Shown here: piece by piece, positions 694 through 11,414 of the stretch
Layout of the letters: every line of letters starts with the position of its first letter
Position numbering within the stretch: position 1 is the first letter of the stretch
DNA from: a virus
Strand: one strand, 5' to 3'
IMG/VR virus record: IMGVR_UViG_3300010354_000365
Span: 1-30,748 of that record
Length of the DNA stretch: 30,748 nt
Translations under genes and position numbers: made by a program
The notes under the pieces: model-generated
Databases searched by the model: none
Told to the model about the DNA's origin: nothing
The model's input: the letters and a program-made list of their open reading frames with translations, nothing else

Positions 694-2784
694 ATGACCA
701 CCATGTTTGAGTTTGACGAAGCTGAGCCCCCCATTGACGAAGATGACGATACATCATCTGTTTCACCCATGAGCGCGGGTAACCAGGTCATGACGCGTAA
801 GGAGCTCATCAACTCCCGAGCCCGTATGCGTAATGCTGTTAACCGTGACGCCAAGGAGGCCGAAACACGAGCTCGTAATACAGCGGCGATGCTGTTGTCC
901 TACAATGAGCGAGACAACTGGTACAGGAATCGTGACGAGCGAAATAGCAAGTACGAAAGTATTGCTTACGGTGTAGCGAACATGGCTAACAAGGTGTTGC
1001 ACAGCCTTGATATCAATGTTCCTCTACGTGTTGACGCTGAGCCACTTGCTCGTACGTACGGCATTACCGACTACGAGTCAATCTTCATCACTCTTGGCAT
1101 CCCGGCAAGTGATGTCGACAGCGTCAACAATCCCGAAGTGTTGTCTGACTTGGTGTTCAAGTCTAAGGGTATGGTGTACCACGAAGGTGGGCACATCATG
1201 TGGACCTACCCCTTTGACAACCTTGTTGAAGAGGTTAAAGAGACCATTGGTTTAGACGGCTGTAGTTCTCTCATTAACTCAGTACTAGGTACGTACGTGC
1301 TCAAGTACGCACCATCGTTACTTAGCGAGTACAACGAGAACGTAATCGGGTTAGAAGTTAGAACATCCATTACACGCATGACGACATTCATTCAACGCAT
1401 GGTGTTCCCTGCTTGGGGTGTGCTTGAGGATCAACGCATGGAGACCGCCATGTGTTATACCTCACCGATCATGTCTCGGTACTTCACCGAGATTGTGTTG
1501 GCTTCAGTGGTTGACCCACAGAACCCAGGCACTGCCTGGCCGTGGATTGCTGGGCGTACTTACTTGTCACGAGATATCCGGCAAGTGCTGAGAGAGCTGG
1601 CTGAGACTAACCGCTACAGCCAGATAATCGACGACATAAACGAGCAGGTGTTCAAGTACCGCAAATCAAACGACGTAATCGAGATGTTCGAGTGCGCGGT
1701 ACGCATGTCTGAGCTCATGTACTTGTGGTACAAGGGGTGCCCCGACGATGCCAAGCGACCACACAATGACCACAACAGAGATTCGGGTAATGGAGGAGCC
1801 AAACAACTTCCCGTTGTACCTAACCCATATGAACACGATATGGAGCAGCCTAACAAGGTGACTGGTAACCAATCTTCCAACGACGGTCAGGAAGAGAAGG
1901 ACGGCGACGAGCAAGGTGACCAACCGTCCGATACCCAATCAACTTCTGGCGACCTCGCCAGTAAGTACGGCGAGCTTAAGGACAACGAGAGATCCGACAA
2001 GACAGAGAGAAACCGCAAAGATGAGATTGAGTCAGTAATGTCTGATATCAATAAGCATCGTAACGCGGATATCAAACCGTTCCAAAACCCACAGGCTATG
2101 TCTTCCGATGAGGTCGACAAGTCCAAGTCTGTGGCTAACGGTATGATCTCGGTGCTTGAGTCACTCCACTCACAAGTTGACCCCAGTTGGCGCTTCTATC
2201 AGGATCATGGTGTCCTCGACCCCGTAGCATTCAGCATGTCTGAGCCCGGTGATGACCGTTATTGGTCTGGTTTAGACGATATCGGAGCTAATGGGCATAA
2301 CCTTGCAGTGTCCATCCTGCTGGACGTCTCGGGGTCCATGGGTGGCCATGAGCAAGAGTTGTCTGTAGCCGCTATGGGTATCCGCAAGGCTTGCGAGTAC
2401 TTCTCCATCCCGTGTACTATCACCACGTTTAGTGACTCGGCTCGTATGTTTATTGAAGGTGACGTTGAAGAGTCAGACTTCATATCCATTCGCGCCGGTG
2501 GTGGTACCAACGTGTACGGTGCTATCAGCAAGATTACGGACCAGACATACGGAAAGCACAATCACCTGGTGGTTGTCTTAACTGACGGTGAATGGTCTGA
2601 CATTGACGACGTCAGGCCGTGGGCTGACAACAACAAGTACATCATTTTGGTTGGCTTTAGAATGTACGACCACGCAATCAGTAAGATGCGCAAGAAGGGT
2701 GCCAACGAGGTGGTCAATATCCACGACCTTAGCAAGCTCCCTCAGCTTATGACTGAGGCACTAGCCGGGTTCATGGCCAAATGA
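694..2784 (+). CDS. VWA-domain protein with N-terminal HExxH metallopeptidase-like region
   Basis: 696 residues; ATG follows AAGGAG. The N-terminal half carries HEGGH at residues 163-167, a match to the zinc-protease HExxH motif, and EDQRME near 245-250, a block like that in CobT/DUF2201-type proteins. Residues about 350-450 are a hydrophilic, Asp/Glu/Gln/Ser-rich linker. The C-terminal third is a VWA domain with a complete MIDAS: D544-x-S546-x-S548, T605 and D631. VWA proteins of this type work with MoxR/CbbQ AAA+ ATPases, and the gene directly upstream encodes one. Probable role: the metal-dependent adaptor, perhaps protease, half of an ATP-driven remodelling complex. Whether the HExxH site is active cannot be judged from sequence. 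Confidence 0.85.
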   Translation: MTTMFEFDEAEPPIDEDDDTSSVSPMSAGNQVMTRKELINSRARMRNAVNRDAKEAETRARNTAAMLLSYNERDNWYRNRDERNSKYESIAYGVANMANKVLHSLDINVPLRVDAEPLARTYGITDYESIFITLGIPASDVDSVNNPEVLSDLVFKSKGMVYHEGGHIMWTYPFDNLVEEVKETIGLDGCSSLINSVLGTYVLKYAPSLLSEYNENVIGLEVRTSITRMTTFIQRMVFPAWGVLEDQRMETAMCYTSPIMSRYFTEIVLASVVDPQNPGTAWPWIAGRTYLSRDIRQVLRELAETNRYSQIIDDINEQVFKYRKSNDVIEMFECAVRMSELMYLWYKGCPDDAKRPHNDHNRDSGNGGAKQLPVVPNPYEHDMEQPNKVTGNQSSNDGQEEKDGDEQGDQPSDTQSTSGDLASKYGELKDNERSDKTERNRKDEIESVMSDINKHRNADIKPFQNPQAMSSDEVDKSKSVANGMISVLESLHSQVDPSWRFYQDHGVLDPVAFSMSEPGDDRYWSGLDDIGANGHNLAVSILLDVSGSMGGHEQELSVAAMGIRKACEYFSIPCTITTFSDSARMFIEGDVEESDFISIRAGGGTNVYGAISKITDQTYGKHNHLVVVLTDGEWSDIDDVRPWADNNKYIILVGFRMYDHAISKMRKKGANEVVNIHDLSKLPQLMTEALAGFMAK

Positions 2785-2819
2785 TCATCGTAAGTAACAC
2801 AACAGAAAGGGATACCAAC

Positions 2820-3176
2820 ATGAATGACTCACTGGAAGACACAGCGAGGGAGTACCTGGGTGTCAAGCGTGCAATTGACGACTTGACCGAGCGACTCAAG
2901 GGACTTGATAAGTCCATCAAGCAGATGATGGTTGATCAAGATCTCAAGAAGCTCAGCATCGATGGCAAGTCCATCAACTTGGTGCAGTACCCCCAGCGTT
3001 CGTTCAAGATTGATGAGCTTCGCAAGCTGATCTCAGCTGCAACTTTCAACTTGGTAACGGAGCCCAAGGTGTCCACCGAGATGTTTGACTCTGCAGTCAA
3101 CGTTGGCAAGATCTCGCAAGAGGTTGCCGACAAAGTCACCGTCAAGACTCCGGTGGCTCAACTCAGGGTCAAGTAA
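2820..3176 (+). CDS. Small helical phage protein of unknown function
   Basis: 118 residues from the ATG at 2820, which has GAAAGG nine bases upstream. An in-frame ATG at 2781 overlaps the VWA stop codon (ATGA) and would add 13 residues, but it lacks a good ribosome site, so 2820 is preferred. The first 45 residues are charged and helical with heptad-like hydrophobic spacing (EYLGVKRAIDDLTERLKGLD), followed by a short strand-like part (LSIDGKSINLVQYPQRSFK) and a helical tail. No enzyme motif seen. It is probably co-transcribed with the AAA+/VWA pair and could be its third component, but this is only positional inference. Confidence 0.75.
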   Translation: MNDSLEDTAREYLGVKRAIDDLTERLKGLDKSIKQMMVDQDLKKLSIDGKSINLVQYPQRSFKIDELRKLISAATFNLVTEPKVSTEMFDSAVNVGKISQEVADKVTVKTPVAQLRVK

Positions 3177-3243
3177 CAAAGCGTAAGGGCAAGATAACCG
3201 ACCCCGTCTCTCATCTACTCCTTTCTGAGAATGGGCTTGCCCT

Positions 3244-3325
3244 CCCTTGGCTGGACGCCGCTTCAAAACCTGTGCGGGTTGGTTGTTGACCGCAAGTTAG
3301 AGAAGCATCAGCGTCCAGTCAGGGG
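3244..3325 (+). ncRNA. Candidate structured RNA element in the 3177-3385 intergenic region
   Basis: In a compact genome this 209-base gap is exceptional. Bases 3244-3258 pair with 3311-3325 over 15 consecutive positions (13 Watson-Crick, two G-U: 3247/3322 and 3250/3319). The fold continues inward with 3260-3264/3302-3306 (GCTTC/GAAGC), 3267-3269/3296-3298, and 3273-3277/3290-3294 (TGCGG/CCGCA), closing on a 12-base loop. The two wobbles are G-U only in the + transcript; the - strand would have A-C mismatches, which favours function as RNA from the + strand. There is no T-run after it, so it is not a normal terminator. It could be a small RNA, a leader control element for the next gene, or an mRNA processing site. 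Confidence 0.5.
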
Positions 3326-3333
3326 TGAGTTCG

Positions 3334-3367
3334 GTTAGACTAACGCACAGCGCAATCGTGGCGCTGT
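3334..3367 (+). promoter_or_regulatory. Palindrome plus leader hairpin upstream of the 3386 gene
   Basis: Two further dyads follow the long RNA fold: GTTAG-A-CTAAC at 3334-3344, and ACAGCGC/GCGCTGT at 3347-3353/3361-3367 (7 bp, 7-base loop AATCGTG). The latter ends 7 bases before the Shine-Dalgarno AAAGGTG of the 3386 gene. The first could be a protein-binding operator, the second an mRNA leader hairpin. No convincing -35/-10 pair was found (TAGACT at 3336 lacks a good -35). Confidence 0.35.
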
Positions 3368-3385
3368 CCAAACAAAGGTGCAAGT

Positions 3386-3643
3386 ATGACCGAGCAACAT
3401 AGTTACAAGTTAATCTTCGATAAGTGCGCTGACGGAGGACCACCCCACATCCTGTGGTTGTTGCGTGGTTACAACATGACTTTCTTGCGTGACGGGGAGA
3501 ATATTGCGTGGGGAACCGTCGTGTCGTCTAACGATATTGACTGGACCGTTGATATCCAGACGTACACTGACGACCAATGGACTGTTCACGGGCCCATAGT
3601 CACTATTTCTATCGACTCGTTTGACACAGTTGTTTACCACTAA
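3386..3643 (+). CDS. Small hypothetical protein
   Basis: 85 residues; ATG follows AAAGGTG at a normal distance. The sequence is mostly beta-like with many aromatic residues and alternating polar/hydrophobic positions (NMTFLRDGENIAWGTVVSS, VTISIDSFDTVVYH), suggesting a small beta-rich fold. No Cys cluster, no membrane segment, no recognised family. It is the first gene after the structured intergenic region, so it may head a new transcript that runs on into the HNH gene 9 bases downstream. Confidence 0.65.
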   Translation: MTEQHSYKLIFDKCADGGPPHILWLLRGYNMTFLRDGENIAWGTVVSSNDIDWTVDIQTYTDDQWTVHGPIVTISIDSFDTVVYH

Positions 3644-3652
3644 GGAACTCTT

Positions 3653-4123
3653 ATGGCGATGTGTCGTGGTCCGGTGTGTAACCGCAAAGTCGTATCAAAA
3701 GGATTATGCGCTGCGCACTATAAGCAAATGCAACGAGATGGCGTGTTGCACGTCATCGAAGATTCCAAACTTCCAGAGGACAAGTTCTGGAAGAACATCA
3801 AGAAAACAGAAGATGGGTGTTGGCTGTGGACAGGACCTGTGGATAAGGGTTATGGCCGCATGTACGTGGGTAACAAGGCGTACCAGGTGCATCGCTGGTC
3901 ATATGAGCAGCACAAGCACGTAAGCCTTACCAAGGCAGAGACTCTTGACCACCTATGCCGTAACACCACGTGCTGTAACCCAGAGCACCTCGAGAAGGTG
4001 TCGCTTATCGAGAACATCGAGCGCCAACACCTGTACCACGCCCTTAATGCAGAGATAAAGCGTTTGAGGGAGTTTTTAATTGACATCGGATATAACCCCG
4101 ATACCCTACAAAAGGAGATGTAA
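3653..4123 (+). CDS. HNH endonuclease (HNH_3 type) with N-terminal Cys/His knuckle
   Basis: 156 residues; AAGGA precedes the ATG. Residues 4-22 hold C4, C9, C19 and H22 (GLCAAHYKQ), a small zinc-knuckle-like module common on phage HNH proteins. The core matches the HNH_3 pattern: H80-R in QVHRWSYE, then D99-H100-L-C102 and C107-C-N109-P-x-H112-L. Such enzymes cut DNA and often act as free-standing homing endonucleases that spread between related phages; others help packaging or recombination. Position between hypothetical genes and beside an unusual intergenic region suits a homing enzyme, but no split gene or intron is evident. The stop overlaps the next ATG (TAATG). Confidence 0.85.
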   Translation: MAMCRGPVCNRKVVSKGLCAAHYKQMQRDGVLHVIEDSKLPEDKFWKNIKKTEDGCWLWTGPVDKGYGRMYVGNKAYQVHRWSYEQHKHVSLTKAETLDHLCRNTTCCNPEHLEKVSLIENIERQHLYHALNAEIKRLREFLIDIGYNPDTLQKEM

Positions 4124-4353
4124 TGAAGGTTTCCCAACTAATCCAAGCACTGACCAATGACTTTGGGCCCGACGACGAAGTGTGTGTTCTCATGTACGAC
4201 AAAAAGATGTTTGACTTCCCTGAAGACGACGAATTGACATTGACTGATGAAGGCTGGCGCAGCATGGTTGCGGACTTCGAGCAGGTGGATTTCCCTGATA
4301 TATGGGAATCTTTGTCAATGGCCGCCCTGGACTACGCCATGGAAAGTGAGTGA
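4123..4353 (+). CDS. Small acidic hypothetical protein
   Basis: 76 residues, translationally coupled to the HNH gene by a TAATG overlap; AAAGGAG lies 5 bases upstream of the start. Very acidic, with a beginning (MKVSQLIQALTNDFGPDDEV) that resembles small phage proteins of the form VSQLIELL...GPDDEV, often of DUF type. No catalytic motif. Phage proteins this acidic sometimes mimic DNA or bind host factors, but nothing here shows that directly. Confidence 0.7.
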   Translation: MKVSQLIQALTNDFGPDDEVCVLMYDKKMFDFPEDDELTLTDEGWRSMVADFEQVDFPDIWESLSMAALDYAMESE

Positions 4354-5642: not shown

Positions 5643-6031
5643 GCTAGTACTAGCTCCCTGATTCGTGATCGACCCCAACCGTCCACCTCGGTCCATATAG
5701 CAGTGTTAACTCCGTGCTCGGCCAGAAGCTCTTGACACGCCTCACACGGCTTAGCGAGACCGATAAGACCACTACGTGTTACACGGGCAATATAGATAGT
5801 GGACCCCTGAGCATCCCCTGCCTTACGGAGAGCCACTTGCTCGGCGTGGTATGAAACCCCACCTGGCTCAACCTGTGACGGGTCATTACGGTACCGATTG
5901 AAACCGGTGCTTAGGACACGCCCTCCTCCAACAAGCACGGCCCCCACACGCCACTTGTCGTGAGGAGCCAGTAGTGCTTGTTGTACAGCGACGTTGATCC
6001 AGCGGAGATCAGACGTACTGATTTGCGGCAT
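5639..6031 (-). CDS. Cytidine/deoxycytidylate deaminase-like protein
   Basis: 130 residues from the ATG at 6031; a TTG at 6037 would add two. GAGAGA sits about ten bases upstream, inside the WhiB gene, whose 3' end overlaps. The zinc-dependent deaminase signature is complete: H62-A-E64 and P95-C96-E97-A98-C99. The family hydrolytically deaminates cytosine nucleotides (dCMP to dUMP, or cytidine); phage dCMP deaminases feed dUMP to thymidylate or modified-base synthesis. With only 130 residues and no obvious allosteric dCTP site, cytidine versus dCMP cannot be decided. No thymidylate synthase is in the window. Last gene of the operon starting at 7914. Confidence 0.85.
   Translation of the reverse strand: MPQISTSDLRWINVAVQQALLAPHDKWRVGAVLVGGGRVLSTGFNRYRNDPSQVEPGGVSYHAEQVALRKAGDAQGSTIYIARVTRSGLIGLAKPCEACQELLAEHGVNTAIWTEVDGWGRSRIRELVLA
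5642..5655. repeat. 14-bp perfect palindrome at the convergent gene junction
   Basis: AGCTAGTACTAGCT reads the same on both strands. It lies inside the last codons of the deaminase gene and touches the stop codon of the convergent gene. It could be a binding site, or a short hairpin (5-bp stem) slowing transcription from both sides; there is no T-run. Confidence 0.4.
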
Positions 6032-6482
6032 CAGCAATCAATCTCTCAGACTCTTCGATGGTGATGCTTAGATGGCAGGCCAAATCGTGGGTAATACCCT
6101 TTGACGGGAGTTTATTGAAAGACTTGAACTGCTTAAGACATCTGATAATCACGCTTACCGGCATGCGGCAATCAAGATTGTTGATGTCCATGTTACGCCT
6201 CTCCCGAGGCGCCAACCCACCATACACACCATGGTGTAGACCGTTCTCGAGGGCGAACGTCAAACATTCTTTACGGACGGTGCAAGTAGCACAAGTTAAC
6301 TTTGACTCACTAATACATATTTGCATTAAGTGAGACTCTTCCTTAGAAGGGAAGAAACATGTTGTTCCTTTACCCTTGCATGCCGCTTTGTCGCGCCACT
6401 TGTCGTCACCCCACGACCGTAGTTGGGGGAGATCTAGACCTCTATCGGAATTGGGGATTGTTTGGTTACTTGTTGTTTCCAT
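6009..6482 (-). CDS. WhiB-family iron-sulfur regulator with C-terminal helical extension
   Basis: 157 residues. The four cluster cysteines are C35, C64, C67 and C73 (C-xn-CxxC-x5-C), followed by the family turn GVYGGL (85-90) and a basic APRERR. WhiB proteins bind a 4Fe-4S cluster and the primary sigma factor of actinobacteria; phage copies can repress host whiB genes or alter host transcription. About 55 extra residues follow the usual end, with an HTH-like stretch (GITHDLACHLSITIEESERL) near 128-147, unusual for short phage WhiB proteins. The start has no good ribosome site, so translation may depend on the glycosyltransferase gene ending 13 bases upstream. Confidence 0.9.
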   Translation of the reverse strand: METTSNQTIPNSDRGLDLPQLRSWGDDKWRDKAACKGKGTTCFFPSKEESHLMQICISESKLTCATCTVRKECLTFALENGLHHGVYGGLAPRERRNMDINNLDCRMPVSVIIRCLKQFKSFNKLPSKGITHDLACHLSITIEESERLIADAANQYV

Positions 6483-9980: not shown

Positions 9981-11414
9981 TTACTGCTCGTCAATGTTTA
10001 TTACATCAGCAATAAACTGGTCGGTCATAGACCGGTCCAACCCACCGCCAGGTAGTTGGCGAGAGACTTCTCCGGCCTTGGCCCCAAATAACCTAGACAA
10101 GACACCAGCGTTACCTCGGGCCTCCACCTCCATACGGATGACGTCTCGGCTATCTGAGATGTTCTTAAATTTGTCAACTAGAGAGAACAGCCTGTCCATC
10201 TCTGACGACAGGGCAGGGTCAAGACCCTGACCTTCTAGCTCTTCGGCAAATCTGGCAAACAAAACGCGGCTAGCTTGCATCTCGATCATGGCCTGAAGGA
10301 CTGCTTGTAGTTGGTCCTTGGTGCGTATCTCTACAGGCAGCTTGAAGCCACAATCAGAATGTTCGCGGAATGCAGGACAACGAGCAGCCAGGTAGCAACT
10401 ATCACACTGTCGAAGTGGGTTCGATTGATACCGTATTACAGGGGTCTCTTCAGGGCTTATTTCTATGTATTCTCCCTGATCAGAGTCGGTTTGTGTGCCC
10501 ATGGACAAGATGCTTTCTATGCCCATAACCGGTAGCAATACACGATCACTGTCGTGCCGCTTCTCGAGTTGCCCGGTAGCAATAGTTGACGGCTTGGATG
10601 CTGCTTTAGTAGAGGTAGGTGTTTCATGGGGTATATCAACTATCTCCCCACTTTCGCTGTTTACGAACTCCTCTTCGTCACCGATCTCTTGGGGGTCATA
10701 GGCCCCAAAAGACTTGGTCTCCCACGCCATCCATGAACGGATGGCCAGAGTACCTAATGCACTCACGTCGTCTTCCATAACGGCCTCATAGTCAACCCCC
10801 AGACGGAGAATATCTGGGCGGTGCTTCTTACGTGACGACTCTTTTTGCTGGGCTGGGTACCGTCGTAAGCCGTGCCCATCCCACACCTGGGTCTCCCCGT
10901 ATCGGATAGTCGATGTCCACGAACCGACAACCACAGCATCCCAGGGGAGGGCTTCAATGATGTCTGGCTTACTCGTGAGGCCAATGAGGCTGGCGTTCCA
11001 CCTCTGTGATAGCGACCTAATTCTGGGTGTTGTTTTAGATGTGACAGCCTTGTCAGAAATGGCGGCTCGACCGTACCTCTGGCATAGCCACGCTAAGCGT
11101 TCCAGATCATCGTTGTCTGACCATAGGGGGATGTACTTATCCCCCATCCAGTCACCGTCATACCCGGGGCGTCCTACAACGTAGGTCAGGTCGTCGATGT
11201 GCTGGCGCACAAAGTCGGTGTAGCGGGTTTCGTCCTCATCATTTTCAGATGTGTACAAAAGAACCTCAGCGTTATTGAACACCGTGGGGATGTGGAACTC
11301 TTTGATCTTGGGGATTGGTAGGTGGGTAAGGTTGACAGCCATATGCTTTACGTTGTTAGCGATAAGCATGTTTCGGTGGGCGCCCTTTTCAGCACCGCCT
11401 AGGAATACTCTCAC
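9981..11414 (-). CDS. Large protein with possible TGT/DpdA-like TIM-barrel domain and C-terminal Cys cluster
   Basis: 477 residues; GTG start overlaps the upstream stop (GTGA). Residues 1-235 look like alternating strands and helices of a TIM barrel, with KYIPLWSDNDDLERLAWL (93-110), SLIGLTSKPDIIEALPWD (142-159) and VVGSWTSTIRYG (162-173). The last blocks resemble DpdA/tRNA-guanine transglycosylase-like phage proteins, in which a SVDSxSW-type motif carries an Asp; here that position appears to be V162. Residues 240-330 are a polar linker. C337, C340, C346 and C355 could bind an Fe-S cluster or zinc, followed by a long helical region. Family call tentative; if right, the base-exchange activity may be lost. 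Confidence 0.5.
   Translation of the reverse strand: MRVFLGGAEKGAHRNMLIANNVKHMAVNLTHLPIPKIKEFHIPTVFNNAEVLLYTSENDEDETRYTDFVRQHIDDLTYVVGRPGYDGDWMGDKYIPLWSDNDDLERLAWLCQRYGRAAISDKAVTSKTTPRIRSLSQRWNASLIGLTSKPDIIEALPWDAVVVGSWTSTIRYGETQVWDGHGLRRYPAQQKESSRKKHRPDILRLGVDYEAVMEDDVSALGTLAIRSWMAWETKSFGAYDPQEIGDEEEFVNSESGEIVDIPHETPTSTKAASKPSTIATGQLEKRHDSDRVLLPVMGIESILSMGTQTDSDQGEYIEISPEETPVIRYQSNPLRQCDSCYLAARCPAFREHSDCGFKLPVEIRTKDQLQAVLQAMIEMQASRVLFARFAEELEGQGLDPALSSEMDRLFSLVDKFKNISDSRDVIRMEVEARGNAGVLSRLFGAKAGEVSRQLPGGGLDRSMTDQFIADVINIDEQ

Follow-up and report, generated by a model that had tools for sequence, protein, structure and literature searches.

In several phage homing endonuclease genes the ribosome-binding site (RBS) is sequestered by RNA, as described for I-TevI, mobE of phage Aeh1 and segB of phage T4, where simple stem-loop or intramolecular structures are involved (PMC3014915). 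Pseudoknot-bearing RNAs also lie directly 5' of HNH-containing ORFs, namely HEARO and the omega RNAs of IscB and IsrB, that of IsrB having 12 helices and a guide (PMC9581776). HDV-like ribozymes are present in phages (theta; PMC10879173) and can stand at the 5' end of a mobile element, as in R2 (PMC3774820). The RNA described here resembles the I-TevI, mobE and segB leaders in preceding a mobile endonuclease gene, which as in mobE is of the HNH type, with a structure predicted to hide the RBS. Unlike those leaders, it carries a covarying double pseudoknot of about 155 nt 5' of the predicted sequestering stem.

The window analyzed here is the whole 30,748-nucleotide stretch of an IMG/VR virus record. 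On its + strand, 209 noncoding bases separate a DUF7376/phrog_2362-like gene (2781-3176), whose stop codon lies about 10 nt 5' of the RNA, from an ORF starting at 3386. This ORF (3386-3643, +) encodes 85 aa, for which no family match was found; its single homologue (33%) is in the contig of L120/L032 (L-numbers designate the loci compared). The HNH endonuclease gene (3653-4123, +; phrog_1872/826, zf-His_Me_endon, HNH_3) encodes a 156-aa protein with HNH and zinc-binding matches only, and its stop codon overlaps the start of the next gene. The HNH and zf-His_Me_endon matches suggest that the RNA has a homing-type endonuclease downstream of it. In relatives the HNH gene follows the RNA directly, the 85-aa ORF being found in this interval in the window phage alone, where the HNH gene is thus the second ORF. 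A different small ORF occupies the same spot in L059 and L061, suggesting that ORFs are gained just 5' of the HNH gene.

Elsewhere in the window, positions 52-2784 encode a MoxR-type AAA ATPase and VWA protein pair, which resembles a CobS/CobT-annotated pair of Gordonia phages (~22% identity). A phrog_887 queuine tRNA-ribosyltransferase-like gene (9981-11414, - strand; no Pfam match) is possibly DpdA-like and involved in 7-deazaguanine DNA modification. The interval 5643-6057 was rejected as a noncoding gap: it lies opposite minus-strand coding sequence and its fold is not unusual.

Architecture and covariation of the pseudoknot domain

An earlier note on this DNA had proposed a long structured RNA at 3177-3385, built around a 15-bp stem whose wobble pairs pointed to the + transcript. 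The stem (3244-3258 with 3311-3325) proved exact, and its wobbles do favor that transcript. Folded as the + strand, 3177-3385 reaches -80.9 kcal/mol, compared to -65.0 +/- 4.2 kcal/mol in dinucleotide shuffles (z -3.8), and none of 200 shuffles folded as well; the element of a relative, L001, gave a z of -4.3. Together with the covarying helices found in relatives, this bears out the existence of the structured RNA, which is larger than had been described and spans 3182-3385. The helices P1 and P3 and the pseudoknot P2 were absent from the earlier description.

At its 5' edge stands a near-invariant CGUA (3182-3185, +; CGTAAGG in DNA, and CCTAAGG in L054 and L058). This is followed by the 5' strand of P1, AGGGCAAG (3186-3193, +), which pairs with CUUGCCCU (3236-3243, +); all eight pairs of P1 are formed in every lineage, with double changes in four of the eight columns. 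The 5' strand of the pseudoknot helix P2, UAACCGA (3195-3201, +), pairs with UCGGUUA (3331-3337, +) and covaries across lineages. Between the two strands of P1, and stacked directly on it, the P3 hairpin (3203-3235, +) presents a 12-nt loop with a conserved CCUUUCU (3220-3226); the loop is about 12 nt in most lineages and longer in L032 and L057, with CCUUUC present. P4, the 15-bp stem noted above (+ strand), spans 11-15 bp across lineages, and covariation is seen on both its strands. Its apical part (3259-3310, +) varies in length and fold among relatives, and the apical helices and 12-base loop at 3278-3289 that had been drawn there are accordingly not conserved. A junction, J4/2 (3326-3330, +; consensus (C/U)GA(A/G/C)), connects P4 to the 3' strand of P2. 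The order CGUA (CCUA in two), P1, P2 5' strand, P3, P1 3' strand, P4, YGA(A/G/C), P2 3' strand and UAGACU is the same in all lineages. The domain of about 155 nt is hence a nested double pseudoknot of P1, P3 and P4 with the crossing P2, and has CGUA, the CCUUUC loop and the YGA junction as its invariant core.

The nearest relative is a sister phage represented by two IMG/VR contigs (L001/L002), which is about 82% identical overall and has the element at the same place. Seven pairs of the P4 stem differ in it, four through double and three through single compensatory changes, and none is lost; the flanking segments are identical, as are both strands of P2. The pairing of UAACCGA with UCGGUUA across the P1 hairpin is an arrangement that occurs in 0.7% of random 209-mers. 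The P4 stem remains paired in nine lineages despite heavy sequence variation, so that the compensation among relatives that the earlier note had asked for is present.

By hand count, standard pairs made up 80/80 in P1, 49/49 in P2, 49/49 in P3 and 129/130 in P4. We then considered an equal-length core alignment of P1, P2 and P4, which omits a bulged base in the P2 of three lineages (L048, L056 and L068). In this alignment 98.9% of cells were paired versus 77.4% in shuffles, the covariation score was 0.693 versus 0.221, and both-side changes numbered 47 cells versus 15. When the partner strand was slid by one column pairing fell to 61% or less, and strands swapped between lineages paired worse (p <=0.0002 per helix). 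Leaving out the bulged base means that the alignment is fitted to the structure, which in light of these controls is a small concern. This covariation establishes the pseudoknot fold. A loose scan of all loci for the topology drew in many chance matches, indicating that the topology by itself is not diagnostic and that the sequence core and covariation are.

Distribution of the RNA and its link to the HNH gene

Close homologues of the window HNH protein were detected in about 37 of the viral contigs searched (70-97% identical). Among the IMG/VR phage contigs we recovered 11 distinct copies of the RNA, falling into about nine lineages of this one contig collection, and all 11 lie just upstream of an HNH gene. 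The link between RNA and HNH gene is thus observed throughout the sampled contigs; it is in part a product of the HNH-based search, and pattern scans were also run without the HNH protein. Scans for the RNA itself found members solely 5' of this HNH family, along with chance hits, and scans for the 3' hairpin returned the HNH-linked copies and two chance hits only. Viral-contig pattern scans with GGGGTGAGTTCGGTTA and with GATAACCGA..GTTCGGTTA gave the sister phage and chance matches only, and blastn of phage DNA databases with the elements of the window, L048 and L032 gave no real match.

The genes 5' of the RNA vary, and include HTH proteins, a small ORF and, in L001 and L054 as in the window, the DUF7376-like type. 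No close HNH homologue was found in bacterial genomes, in which distant relatives of at most 54% identity were the only ones detected. Given the recurrence of the same RNA and HNH gene after differing upstream genes, and this lack of close bacterial homologues, the cassette appears to be mobile among phages. Following the HNH gene, the window (4123-4353) and L001 have different genes, while the sisters are about 82% identical overall and 90% identical in HNH itself. In this pair the borders of the cassette thus look recombinogenic.

Many HNH leaders do not have the pseudoknot, and those that do are dispersed over the HNH tree, which is itself poorly resolved. The leaders of other HNH genes, many of them placed after WhiB genes, retain the 3' part alone. 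For example, L033-L047 have WhiB genes preceding and no pseudoknot 5' of the HNH gene, with TAGACT and the CAAnCGTG hairpin remaining, in some cases behind a strong terminator. The WhiB-bearing relatives suggest that these phages probably infect actinobacteria.

Predicted pairing of the 3' domain with the Shine-Dalgarno region

The 3' domain contains an invariant UAGACU (3336-3341), which together with the next, variable bases forms the strand (3336-3348, +) predicted to pair with the Shine-Dalgarno (SD) region and spacer in a helix we term P5. Within it lies an inner hairpin, ACAGCGC-AAUCGUG-GCGCUGU (3347-3367, +), which is kept in most HNH leaders, even those without the pseudoknot. The AAAGG of the SD region and the spacer of the next ORF (3374-3385, +) are predicted to be partly paired with 3339-3348. 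Of two further dyads proposed earlier for this region, that at 3347-3367 corresponds to this conserved hairpin; the one at 3334-3344 is not conserved, its bases being part of P2 and of the SD-pairing strand.

P5 is predicted to pair with the SD or spacer in eight of the nine lineages and is weak in L062. It takes the form of UAGACUCC/GGAGGUCUA in L032, UACCUC/GAGGUA with ACU/AGU in L054/L055, UAGAC/GUCUA in L001, and, in the window, ACU/AGU with a short GC helix; it is re-formed where the spacer has changed, as in L048, L054 and the window. Cognate strands paired better than strands swapped between the nine lineages (p 0.013; 0.023 and 0.027 on subsets), a modest support that phylogeny limits, and the same test over all 19 leaders was not significant (p 0.20). 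The predicted P5 energy is -3 to -4 kcal/mol in the pseudoknot-less L040-44 and L063, which lie behind a terminator, versus a mean of -7.6 kcal/mol in the pseudoknot lineages. We regard the pairing as a prediction with moderate support from covariation. In most lineages P2 and the next helix abut or share up to 2 nt, two bases being shared in L001. UAGACU is invariant even where the spacer pairing is incomplete, suggesting that it has a further role besides P5.

Loop 3 (ACUCCUUUCU, window 3217-3226), or the loop CUCCUUUCU, is similar to the 3' end of the 16S rRNA of actinobacteria, and would act as an anti-SD mimic. Its predicted pairing with the SD amounts to -9.3 kcal/mol in L001 and -3.8 kcal/mol in L048, and is strong in some lineages only; we consider this potential interaction no more than a lead. 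We rejected a pyrimidine triplex between loop 3 and P1, as it fits L048 and not the other lineages.

Competing readings and a proposed leader function

The earlier note had left three readings side by side: a small RNA, a leader switch and an RNA-protein binding site. Every copy of the RNA directly precedes the HNH gene family in the same orientation, and its 3' end is predicted to pair with the ribosome-binding region of that gene, which favors the leader switch. We retain protein binding as an alternative with a modest chance of being correct, in which the RNA would be a site for the HNH or another phage protein, serving autoregulation or a homing RNP, instead of a ligand-responsive leader. 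The tight link to one protein family and the invariant single-stranded CCUUUC, YGA, UAGACU and CAAnYGUGG would suit such binding; against it, close HNH homologues without the pseudoknot exist, and no known RNA-binding domain was found among the matches of the HNH protein.

It is unlikely that TAGACT and the hairpin act as DNA, either as a -10-like promoter element or as the recognition site of the endonuclease itself, independently of the RNA fold. TAGACT does fit the pattern TANNNT, and most HNH leaders retain both it and CAAnCGTG, even when a terminator lies upstream and a promoter would be needed. However, neither the window nor L043 yielded a promoter-like site, and a DNA site would leave the covarying helices unexplained.

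Self-cleavage by an HDV-like ribozyme, cutting the operon transcript 5' of P1 (CGUA/AGG) and creating a new 5' end for the endonuclease mRNA as in R2, seems to us quite improbable. The nested P1/P2/P3/P4 double-pseudoknot topology of these ribozymes is indeed present, with the same helix order and crossing, P3 stacked on P1, and a P1 that spans 7-8 bp and has GG close to the 5' end; J4/2 is short and reads CGAA in L048, L057 and L068, and a 5' position in a mobile element is shared with HDV-like ribozymes such as those of R2. However, the first base of J4/2, where HDV has its catalytic C, is U in six of the nine lineages, the window included, and C in three, and it differs between the sisters L056 (U) and L068 (C); in the drz and R2 ribozymes a C to U change abolishes cleavage (PMC10879173, PMC3774820). 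A P1.1 with loop 3 is lacking, as P1 runs directly into P4 (CCC) and G is missing from that strand. Moreover, the CGUA preceding the supposed cut is conserved although cleavage has no need of it, a predicted SD-pairing domain follows, and no match to the Rfam HDV models was found. The missing P1.1 and a catalytic C that is mostly U and switches between sisters lead us not to class the RNA as an HDV-like ribozyme, and HDV-type catalysis is unlikely.

A free phage small RNA acting in trans is highly improbable: the fold is compact and stable, but no promoter or terminator was found, every true member returned by the pattern scans adjoins the HNH gene, and the RNA always lies beside that gene and is predicted to pair with the SD of the gene that follows.

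Other known classes were likewise compared. HEARO and the omega RNAs share the placement of a pseudoknot-bearing RNA directly 5' of an HNH-containing ORF, but differ in fold, and the HNH protein here is stand-alone and matches no further domain; this assignment was rejected given the absence of RuvC and PLMP domains and of any Rfam HEARO match at E up to 10 (window, L001) or up to 5 (seven loci). A group I intron was rejected as there is no Rfam match, the 3' half is missing and the HNH stop overlaps the next start. Searches of 3177-3385 yielded neither a tRNA nor any site resembling a promoter or terminator, in agreement with the earlier note, which had seen no T-run in support of simple termination, and tRNA, tmRNA and terminator were rejected on the features of the element. 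No Rfam match was found even at E 10, nor any description in the literature searched; the RNA is thus previously uncatalogued, as had been suspected.

We therefore return to the leader switch, and think it probable that the RNA is a cis-acting leader of a mobile HNH (homing-type) endonuclease gene, in which the pseudoknot and an SD-sequestering stem limit translation. The pseudoknot domain would be followed by P5, enclosing the conserved inner hairpin, and the leader would keep endonuclease translation low on read-through operon transcripts, its rearrangement being needed for good translation. The pseudoknot may modulate the SD block on a signal, which could be a small molecule, the infection stage or a protein, be it the endonuclease or a different one. 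In the window the inserted 85-aa gene would be the first controlled ORF and the HNH gene the second. The joining of an aptamer-like pseudoknot to a predicted SD-sequestering platform is shared with translational riboswitches, no known class of which matches; any switching by a ligand is putative here. More tentatively, the RNA may represent a new class of gene-control RNA, with a scaffold of HDV-like topology that senses instead of cutting and is joined to an SD-sequestering stem, forming a portable on/off switch that accompanies a mobile endonuclease from phage to phage.

Mobile endonucleases need to be expressed without harm to the phage that carries them. T4-like phages use a simple hairpin over the RBS; here, in what are probably actinobacterial phages, a large, conserved and pseudoknotted RNA absent from Rfam appears to be used instead. 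An HDV-like topology without the HDV catalytic features bears on whether non-catalytic RNAs share that fold, and should the RNA act as a sensor, a selfish gene would be carrying its own switch.
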